Source: Candidatus Infernicultor aquiphilus
Lineage (GTDB): Bacteria; Atribacterota; Phoenicimicrobiia; Phoenicimicrobiales; Phoenicimicrobiaceae
Length of the DNA stretch: 34,802 nucleotides
NCBI GenBank assembly: GCA_002782675.1
Contig: PFIP01000127.1
Location: forward strand, 1 to 34,802
Direction of reading: 5' to 3'
Positions within the stretch are counted from its first letter, which is position 1; each line of letters opens with the position of its first letter. The notes beneath the pieces were generated by a model. The model worked only from the letters and a program-made list of their open reading frames with translations, did not search any database and had not been told where the DNA came from. Of the stretch, positions 28,801 through 30,310 are shown piece after piece. The position numbers and the translations under genes were made by a program.

Positions 28801-29670
28801 ATGGATAAGTTAGAAGTAAGGAAACCTGCCGTTGCAGGTAGTTTCTATAATGCTAATTTAAAATCTTTAAAGAAACAGATTGAAAATTGTTTTTTACATA
28901 AAATAGGCCCAGGCAAAATTCCCACAGTAAATCTTCAAGGAGAGAAAAATATTATGGGTTTAATCAGTCCTCACGCTGGTTATATGTATTCAGGACCTGT
29001 TGCAGCTAATGGATTTTATAAAATTGCTTTAGATGGTAAGCCTGATACAATTATTATAATAGGTCCTAACCATCGTGGTTTTGGAGAAGATATTTCTATT
29101 ATGGTTGAAGGAAACTGGGAAACACCTTTAGGTGAATTAGAAATTGATACAAATATTGCAGAAAGCATTTTAAAAAACTCTAAAATAATTAAGGTAGATA
29201 GAAAAGCCCATCAATTTGAACATTCTATAGAAGTTCAATTACCATTTATTCAATATATTTTTGGTGAAAAGGTTAAATTTGTACCAATTTGTATGATTCA
29301 TCAGGATATTAATACAGATATAGAAATTGCTAAATCAATTTGTTCTTCAATAATTAATAAAAATGTTTTAATCATTGCTAGTTCGGACTTTACCCATTAT
29401 GAACCACAAGAATACGCTATAAACATAGATAAGCAAGCAATAAATGCTATTTTAGATTTTGATCCTAAAAAATTATATGATATGATTTACCAACAGAATT
29501 TAACTATGTGTGGCCCTGGTCCAATTACTGTAATGCTTATTGCGTGTGAAACACTAGGTGCAAAAAAAGCTGAATTGCTAAAATATGCTACTTCGGGAGA
29601 TGTTTCGGGAGATGTTTCGGGAATGTTTGACCAGGTGGTTGGTTATGCTTCTATAATCATCCGAAAATGA
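28801..29670 (+). CDS. MEMO1-family protein (AmmeMemoRadiSam system protein B type)
   Basis: A 289-residue MEMO1 (DUF52) family protein, related to nonheme-iron dioxygenase folds. It has RKPAVAGSFYNAN at the start, SPHAGYMYSGPVAANGF, IIIGPNHRGFG, HQFEHSIEVQLPFIQYIF, ASSDFTHYEP and TMCGPGPITVML, with the histidines and cysteine of the pocket kept. The C-terminus contains a repeated GDVSGDVSG coded by a 12-bp tandem repeat (about 29596-29620). The usual AMMECR1 and radical-SAM partners are not nearby. Function is unsettled in bacteria. A GGGGAGGG site precedes the ATG. Confidence 0.9.
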   Translation: MDKLEVRKPAVAGSFYNANLKSLKKQIENCFLHKIGPGKIPTVNLQGEKNIMGLISPHAGYMYSGPVAANGFYKIALDGKPDTIIIIGPNHRGFGEDISIMVEGNWETPLGELEIDTNIAESILKNSKIIKVDRKAHQFEHSIEVQLPFIQYIFGEKVKFVPICMIHQDINTDIEIAKSICSSIINKNVLIIASSDFTHYEPQEYAINIDKQAINAILDFDPKKLYDMIYQQNLTMCGPGPITVMLIACETLGAKKAELLKYATSGDVSGDVSGMFDQVVGYASIIIRK

Positions 29671-29724
29671 TGCATATCGATTATAATGTGAATTAGTCGA
29701 TAGTGAATATTAAAAGTAGTAGGG

Positions 29725-29809
29725 GGCAGAACTTGTGTCTGCCTGTAGAAGTAGGGGTCGGATTTATCCGACCCGTTTTCATTGCGGATTCTATGAATCG
29801 AACTTCTAC
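29725..29809. repeat. compound palindromic element (nested hairpins)
   Basis: First hairpin GGCAGA/TCTGCC at 29725-29730 and 29738-29743. Then GTAGAAGT (29745-29752) pairs with ACTTCTAC (29802-29809) and encloses two more hairpins: GGGTCGGAT/ATCCGACCC (29755-29763 and 29766-29774, 2-nt loop) and GATTC/GAATC (29787-29791 and 29795-29799). It is GC-rich beside its surroundings. It looks like a non-coding mobile repeat (REP or MITE-like) rather than a terminator; no T-run follows the long stem. Confidence 0.75.
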
Positions 29810-29888
29810 GGAAAAAGGATATTCCTATACAATTAAATTATATGTTTTTTAAAAAAAATAATTATTAAATATATTGAGAAATAATAGC

Positions 29889-30230
29889 ATGATAGAAAAT
29901 TATCGTTTTGGGAAAATATTAATCAACGGAAAAGAATATAATTCAGACCTTATTATCTTTAAAGATCATATTTATGATAATTGGTGGAGAAAAGAAGGGC
30001 ACAATCTTTGTATTGATGATGTAAAGGAAATAATAAATAAAAAACCAGATATTTTAATTATTGGAACTGGATTTTATGGTTTAATGAAAGTATCAGAAGA
30101 TTTAATAAAATACATAAAATCAGCAGGAATTGAACAAGTAATTATTAAAAAGACAAGAGATGCATGTGAGGAGTATAATAAACTTTATAAAAATAAAAAT
30201 ATAATTGCTGCTTTTCATTTAACCTGCTAA
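29889..30230 (+). CDS. Mth938-like domain protein (DUF498 / AAMDC family)
   Basis: A 113-residue single-domain protein. Family landmarks are YRFGKILINGKEYNSDLIIF at the start, NWWRKEGHNLCIDD, IGTGFYGLMKVSEDL, the conserved YNKLYKNKNIIAAFHLTC and the very C-terminal LTC. The family (archaeal MTH938, human AAMDC) has a known fold but no firm biochemical role. The ATG at 29889 matches the family start; a TTG at 29874 would add five unlike residues. It follows the MEMO1-family gene with the palindromic element between them. Its 3' end is overlapped by a short reading frame on the other strand. Confidence 0.88.
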   Translation: MIENYRFGKILINGKEYNSDLIIFKDHIYDNWWRKEGHNLCIDDVKEIINKKPDILIIGTGFYGLMKVSEDLIKYIKSAGIEQVIIKKTRDACEEYNKLYKNKNIIAAFHLTC

Positions 30231-30276: not shown

Positions 30277-30310
30277 CCCCGGTGTCCTCGACCACCGGGG
30301 ATCATTTTTT
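30277..30310. terminator. GC-rich hairpin with T-run after the Mth938 gene
   Basis: CCCCGGTG (30277-30284) pairs with CACCGGGG (30293-30300) around an 8-nt loop, followed by ATCATTTTTT (30301-30310). On the plus strand this is a good intrinsic terminator. Read on the minus strand it stands directly before the AAGGAGGT and ATG at 30275-30258, where it could act as a leader structure. Confidence 0.75.

Follow-up and report, generated by a model that had tools for sequence, protein, structure and literature searches.

Between a MEMO1-family gene and an Mth938-like gene, the window (the whole stretch of 34,802 nucleotides that was analysed) holds a dense cluster of hairpins, and the question raised by this locus is whether the cluster evolved in place, as a terminator or a structured RNA, or was brought in as a mobile repeat. 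All of the structures recorded in the preliminary description, namely three hairpins and an enclosing 8-bp inverted repeat, are present: the arms of the GGCAGA/TCTGCC hairpin lie at 29725-29730 and 29738-29743, those of the GGGTCGGAT/ATCCGACCC hairpin at 29755-29763 and 29766-29774 (9 of 9 positions paired), those of the GATTC/GAATC hairpin at 29787-29791 and 29795-29799, and those of the enclosing repeat GTAGAAGT/ACTTCTAC at 29745-29752 and 29802-29809 (8 of 8 paired). Folding of 29713-29815 as RNA gave -37.6 kcal/mol, with a z-score of -3.8 relative to dinucleotide shuffles and one of 200 shuffles folding as well, and as DNA the z-score was -5.27, none of 200 shuffles being as good. The nested hairpins are genuine and unlikely to have arisen by chance.

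Layout of the element and a second repeat family

The feature itself begins at the GTAG at 29719, and sequence common to other copies extends to about 29839. Its parts and the neighboring genes are as follows.

28801..29670, plus strand: upstream neighbor, 289 aa, MEMO1-family according to the preliminary description
29719..29743, plus strand: degenerate REP-C of a second family, a GTAG foot with the GGCAGA/TCTGCC hairpin, consensus GTAGGGGCAGACCTTGTGTCTGCCC (pattern scan and REP-C alignment A4, its irrelevant row L039 being disregarded)
29745..29752, plus strand: left arm GTAGAAGT of the 8-bp repeat, where the REP-C tail meets the 5' flank of the REPIN
29751..29809, plus strand: REPIN/BIME unit, consisting of A, linker and inverted B (model R1, 67.1 bits, E 4.0e-18)
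29751..29774, plus strand: REP-A, a GTAG foot (29751-29754) and the perfect 9-bp hairpin GGGTCGGAT-TT-ATCCGACCC (copies, alignment and compensatory changes)
29775..29785, plus strand: 11-nt linker GTTTTCATTGC, common to the nearest copies (e.g., L003 and L131)
29786..29809, minus strand: inverted, decayed REP-B, consensus GGGTTCGATGAATCGAACCC plus CTAC, holding the third recorded hairpin and the CTAC end (alignment A1)
29802..29809, plus strand: right arm ACTTCTAC of the 8-bp repeat, a mutated REP-B foot with TT where the other 22 copies of A1 have CC
29810..29839, plus strand: 3' flank GGAAAAAGGATATTCCTATACAATTAAATT, common to copies L002 and L003 of the same genome and to copy L131 of a relative
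29889..30230, plus strand: downstream neighbor, Mth938-like according to the preliminary description, 113 aa from its ATG (TTG start at 29874 in the list of open reading frames)

The element starts 48 bp past the upstream stop codon, which ends at 29670, and the downstream gene starts approximately 80 bp beyond it. Hairpin A is intact in the window copy and hairpin B carries four substitutions; in the other 22 copies of A1, hairpin B is complete, and its foot reads CCCCTAC instead of the CTTCTAC found here. The third recorded hairpin is a remnant of B. The enclosing 8-bp repeat was found in one of the 23 aligned copies, that of the window, and is accordingly rejected as a feature of the family; judging from this alignment, neither it nor the third hairpin is an inherited family feature. 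The private change of CC to TT that perfects the 8-bp repeat may represent a template-switch (quasi-palindrome) mutation. The impression of a single composite design given in the preliminary description did not hold, as the stretch is composed of two adjacent REP families, and the enclosing 8-bp repeat is private to the window copy.

The second family, REP-C, was identified by the pattern GTAGGGGCAGACCTTGTGTCTGCCC, which has 26 matches in the genome beyond the window copy at up to three mismatches (none for the reversed-pattern control), and its copies adjoin a different RAYT gene in two relatives (L067 and L068). The window REP-C has an extra G and further changes and is therefore a worn member.

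Two other repeats were observed nearby. An in-frame 12-bp tandem repeat, TTCGGGAGATGT, is present in about 2.5 copies at 29592-29622 near the 3' end of the MEMO1-family gene, and a perfect terminator-like palindrome, CCCCGGTG-TCCTCGAC-CACCGGGG followed by a run of T, is located at 30277-30300. The sequence GTCCTCGACC is common to this palindrome and to a larger element with terminal inverted repeats.

Repetition, stem covariation and taxonomic spread

A 103-bp query gave 46 DNA matches in the window's own genome (G000; 1.67 Mb in 173 contigs, 92% complete) at E up to 10, the weakest among the matches listed having an E of 9.5e-4, and most of them fall on the right-hand part of the query. Good copies have the structure GTAG-GGGTCGGAT-TT-ATCCGACCC-linker-GGGTTCGAT-NN-ATCGAACCC-CTAC, the first hairpin being A and the second B. 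With the covariance model R1 (58 positions, 18 pairs), at least 146 matches on both strands were obtained, corresponding to at least 111 distinct places on at least 58 contigs, a lower bound since 150 of 830 candidates were scored. The high copy number characteristic of GTAG REPs is thus observed, as is their form, a palindrome of 20-40 bp with an unpaired GTAG at one end: the REP unit is 24 nt long, and GTAG is present without variation in all 22 REPs of alignment A2. The copies are mainly intergenic (22 of 24 examined among the 30 loci from the DNA search, by crude ORF calls), with a mean coding fraction of 0.77 in the surrounding DNA.

In the phylum, R1 matches were identified in 26 of 50 genomes, including all 14 of the same family, three of ten from a different family of the same order, with no more than two matches in any one of these, and nine of the 26 others. 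Those in family f3 are weak, with best E values between 1e-7 and 1e-5, and may represent other REP types. One locus (L037) and its counterpart in a relative (L056) align at 82.8% identity over 2792 bp with the doublet in both, and therefore at least one copy was inherited.

The stems show compensatory changes. Among 23 aligned doublets, 16 of them distinct, pairing is seen in 98.3% of cells, and both partners have changed in four pairs; the covariation score is 0.138 compared with 0.069 for shuffled alignments and far lower values for slid controls, and none of 500 shuffles equals it, a count that is not a probability because the sequences are related. The preliminary description had proposed counting copies and searching for covariation, and both searches supported a mobile repeat; a single copy with unconserved stems, the outcome it had named as contrary, was not what was found.

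The A-B arrangement predominates among the doublets examined. The inverted GTAG..CTAC pairs listed from the fetched Atribacterota loci number 56, with two counted twice owing to the overlap of loci L021 and L022; 51 are A-B, five combine with another hairpin type, and none of the 56 is A-A or B-B. Because R1 is itself an A-B model, the 37 pairs drawn from its loci carry a bias, which is smaller for the 19 from the DNA search (17 distinct). Spacing between A and B is mostly 5-12 nt, in some cases 22-26 nt, which corresponds to the short regular spacing of inverted REPs in REPINs and BIMEs. Lone REPs, mostly A, are also present, and rows of head-to-tail REP-A adjoin the RAYT gene on contig C78 described below.

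In 12 of the 30 first-fetched loci, counted by position, the REP lies inside a longer element with the ends TGGTTGTnnCCCAAAAAG/CTTTTTGGGnnACAACCA; measured full copies are 195-218 bp long, and L025 is a 98-bp form. REPIN cargo in this element was observed at L008, L009, L011, L016, L019 and others, at about 1440-1660, and some copies (L025 and L028) are without the second REP. REPINs have therefore also spread as cargo, and part of their copy number is not due to a RAYT.

A candidate transposase with hairpins in its reading frame

Four Y1_Tnp genes in the window's genome scored above the Pfam cut-off, and a fifth RAYT, on contig C152 (L074), was found by protein query. The one on contig C78 (L035 1628-2170, minus strand, 180 aa) is flanked on either side by REP-A copies and contains hairpins B and A in frame at its ends, in the order hairpin B, gene and inverted hairpin A, spanning 471 bp from GTAG to CTAC. 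The inverted REPs that typically flank RAYT/TnpA_REP genes are thus found here, and the matching TnpA_REP that the preliminary description had suggested looking for was recovered with the same hairpins at its ends.

By sequence and by fold, the solved structure nearest to the protein is a TnpA_REP. Its best sequence match in the PDB is TnpA_REP 4er8 (E 3.1e-6), and a model predicted from nine homologues (mean pLDDT 77.9, falling below 50 at residues 1-19 and 156-165, the REP-encoded tails included) has its best fold match in the same entry, a RAYT bound to a REP hairpin (E 8.0e-8, TM 0.64, rmsd 2.3, 24% identity). The HUH motif (H82-x-H84) and the single catalytic tyrosine within Y---NP (Y137..N141-P142) are invariant in all nine sequences of alignment A3. 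A WQ....EH..R motif is also conserved in the alignment of the C78 RAYT; by our reading of the sequences, its residues would be those contacting GTAG, as W94, Q95, E100, H101 and R104 are listed in the account of GTAG recognition by E. coli TnpA_REP in PMC6006769. The top family is NCBIfam REP_Tyr_transpos (NF047646; 66.8 bits, E 1.8e-18), below the curated 80-bit cut-off, which is a scoring threshold and not a structural feature.

Homologues of the C78 RAYT were identified in Atribacterota (L048, 86% identity, apparently from the same assembly as G037, a genome of the same family as G000), two Deltaproteobacteria (74% and 73%), Armatimonadetes (63%), Omnitrophota (52%) and Doudnabacteria (47%). 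The foot-to-foot unit is exactly 471 bp in C78, in G037 (L064) and in both Deltaproteobacteria, and 503 bp in the Armatimonadetes copy. Between the Atribacterota and deltaproteobacterial units, the 24-nt ends are 92-100% identical compared with 73-77% for the middle; the feet are altered in one of the two deltaproteobacterial copies, and the other contains an internal stop codon. The hairpins of the Omnitrophota copy lie outside the predicted gene, and none were found at the Doudnabacteria copy. A plasmid search with the RAYT returned zero matches.

The C78 RAYT is the likely candidate for the mover of the window doublet. REPINs resemble the C78 unit without its middle, since the two hairpins agree in order and orientation. 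In the proposed mechanism, the two inverted REPs would serve as the ends, left and right, of a non-autonomous element that is mobile as single-stranded DNA, and a RAYT/TnpA_REP (an HUH single-tyrosine transposase) would recognize the GTAG foot and hairpin, cut beside them and move the unit, mostly into intergenic DNA; the REPINs would have arisen from a 471-bp unit of the C78 type by internal deletion. A close RAYT (>80% identity) was detected only in the window's genome and in G037 among 50 phylum genomes, whereas R1 matches occur in all 14 genomes of the family; this would be explained if the mover is frequently lost or escapes detection in draft genomes, or if a different RAYT moves the repeats.

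With the scan used, no GTAG hairpin was found in the flanks fetched for the other three Y1_Tnp genes above the Pfam cut-off (L031-L033); one B hairpin is present in a longer stretch near one of these genes (L040). Since the hairpins of the C152 RAYT are GGGCGTATTGC, it is not the natural candidate for moving the A/B family. This gene (L074 1132-1758) and another RAYT gene (L066 639-1277) carry REPs with the GGGCGTATTGC hairpin in frame between HUH and the tyrosine, translated as GVLQYAP. Among L065-L074, distinct RAYT lineages of the phylum adjoin distinct GTAG hairpins (GCGACATGCC, GGGCGTATTGC, GGGCAGACCTTGT, GGGGCACGGC and GGGGCGAAAA). Outside the phylum, two dispersed doublets in the deltaproteobacterial genome G052, which hosts a RAYT homologue, were typed B-B, unlike the ends of its RAYT, and in the Omnitrophota genome G054 dispersed doublets have GGG stems and the RAYT flanks have CGG stems.

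Alternative explanations and known systems

The order of the MEMO1-family and Mth938-like genes is kept in seven relatives, and the window doublet is absent from the orthologous gap in all seven. Five of them (L080, L081, L082, L083 and L084) have a short gap without a GTAG repeat, that of G031 (L076, about 1204-1331) holds a different palindromic repeat, GTCATTGCGAGC..GCAATCTC, and that of G038 (L077, about 2355-2672) has a single REP-A and a further repeat, GTCATTCCCGCGAAAGCGGGAATC; in two more relatives (L078 and L079), the second gene was not found downstream in the fetched stretch. Judging from these seven gaps, the doublet is not conserved at the site, and the gap was hit by repeats more than once. 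As the gaps have diverged, an exact empty site cannot be read, and neither a precise target site nor an excision junction was seen.

Repetition, stem covariation, the A/B architecture, the RAYT ends, the fold and motifs of the protein and the absence of the doublet at the orthologous site together make it very probable that the cluster is a worn REP doublet (a REPIN/BIME unit) of an Atribacterota GTAG family beside a worn REP of a second family, with the C78 RAYT as its likely mover. The window copy is probably dead now, as its REP-B has decayed, and would at most form a transcript hairpin downstream of the MEMO1-family gene.

An intrinsic terminator or mRNA-stabilizing 3' hairpin that evolved here for the MEMO1-family gene is very unlikely. 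Its position 48 bp past the stop codon would suit this role, and a scan called 29755-29774 with GTTTTCATTG terminator-like (one found, 0.1 expected), but the sequence is dispersed at no fewer than 111 places, it folds well as single-stranded DNA too, and the doublet is absent from this site in the seven relatives with the same gene order; copy number and this absence lead us to reject a terminator as the main reading, in agreement with the earlier judgment that the element is not a simple one. The element may still act as a terminator by accident.

The chance that the element is a conserved structured regulatory RNA appears remote. The strong fold and the covariation would be expected of such an RNA, but its copies are spread over 58 contigs or more, the doublet is missing from the orthologous site in the seven relatives, and the same hairpins bracket a transposase gene. 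An Rfam scan of the whole window yielded, at gathering score, only a tRNA elsewhere and no match at the element. Of the mobile repeats that had been suggested, the REP was borne out by the copies, covariation and RAYT. A classical MITE of a DDE transposon with GTAGAAGT/ACTTCTAC as termini is hardly credible and largely refuted: the element is short and non-coding with an inverted repeat at its bounds, and a genuine terminal-inverted-repeat element with REPIN cargo exists in the same genome, but the GTAGAAGT repeat is private to the window copy, the motif of that genuine element is absent from the window locus (L001), and the element ends match the RAYT gene.

Returning to the REP doublet and its candidate RAYT, a broader scenario can be advanced tentatively. 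A minimal 471-bp unit, whose terminal hairpins both encode part of its own transposase, namely the disordered residues at the two ends of the protein, may have moved between Atribacterota, Deltaproteobacteria and Armatimonadetes. On repeated occasions it may have given rise to A-B doublets by internal deletion, and these would account for the hundred or so doublets of the window's genome and for those carried in other elements. Translation of the transposase may also be limited by the hairpin just past the start codon.

Good descriptions of GTAG REPs, of their inverted dimers and of the RAYTs beside them are given in PMC3733652, PMC2817692 and PMC3116915, and overlap of REPs with RAYT gene ends (5'ov, 3'ov) is marked in a figure legend of PMC3733652. 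Like the REPINs/BIMEs of those accounts, the present repeats have a GTAG foot, a short palindrome, inverted doublets, high copy number and intergenic location, a RAYT flanked by the same repeats, and several RAYTs each with its own hairpin. They differ in that nearly all doublets examined combine two different hairpins (A and B), that the host belongs to Atribacterota, and that a REP from a second family adjoins the window copy. In the E. coli REPtron (TnpA_REP, 4er8), as presented in PMC8266576, where the part played by GTAG in binding and cutting is also set out, the HUH-Tyr fold, the WQ....EH..RN motif and the combination of more than one type of GTAG-tagged hairpin as dimers are similar, whereas here the identity in the fold alignment is 24%, the stems are without a conserved bulge and the gene overlaps its REPs. 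In TnpA_REP subclass 2.4 (RAYT group 4; PMC6006769), REPs are long, their stems start from three G-C pairs, and REPs can lie in frame within the RAYT gene, between HUH and Tyr. These traits recur here, the in-frame REPs in L066 and L074; assignment to this subclass is by resemblance and not by the profiles of that paper, and in C78-type units the REPs instead form both ends of the reading frame without an insertion between HUH and Tyr. IS200/IS605 elements (IS608 and ISDra2) share the single-tyrosine HUH transposase and hairpin ends, but their sequence and fold scores are lower than those of TnpA_REP.

A literature search, with most subscription journals outside its scope, found no paper on REPs or RAYTs in Atribacterota. 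Since GTAG REPs, dimers, RAYTs and end overlaps are already described in these papers, the repeats constitute a new family within an established class, and the odd hairpin cluster is accounted for as one REP copy from a phylum that has received little study, a candidate transposase being encoded by the same genome. The most unusual aspect is that the RAYT unit is coding throughout, its two terminal hairpins included, and occurs in three phyla, which goes somewhat beyond the descriptions consulted; with its ends in its own frame, this unit could provide a clean natural model of the passage from an autonomous unit to REP doublets.
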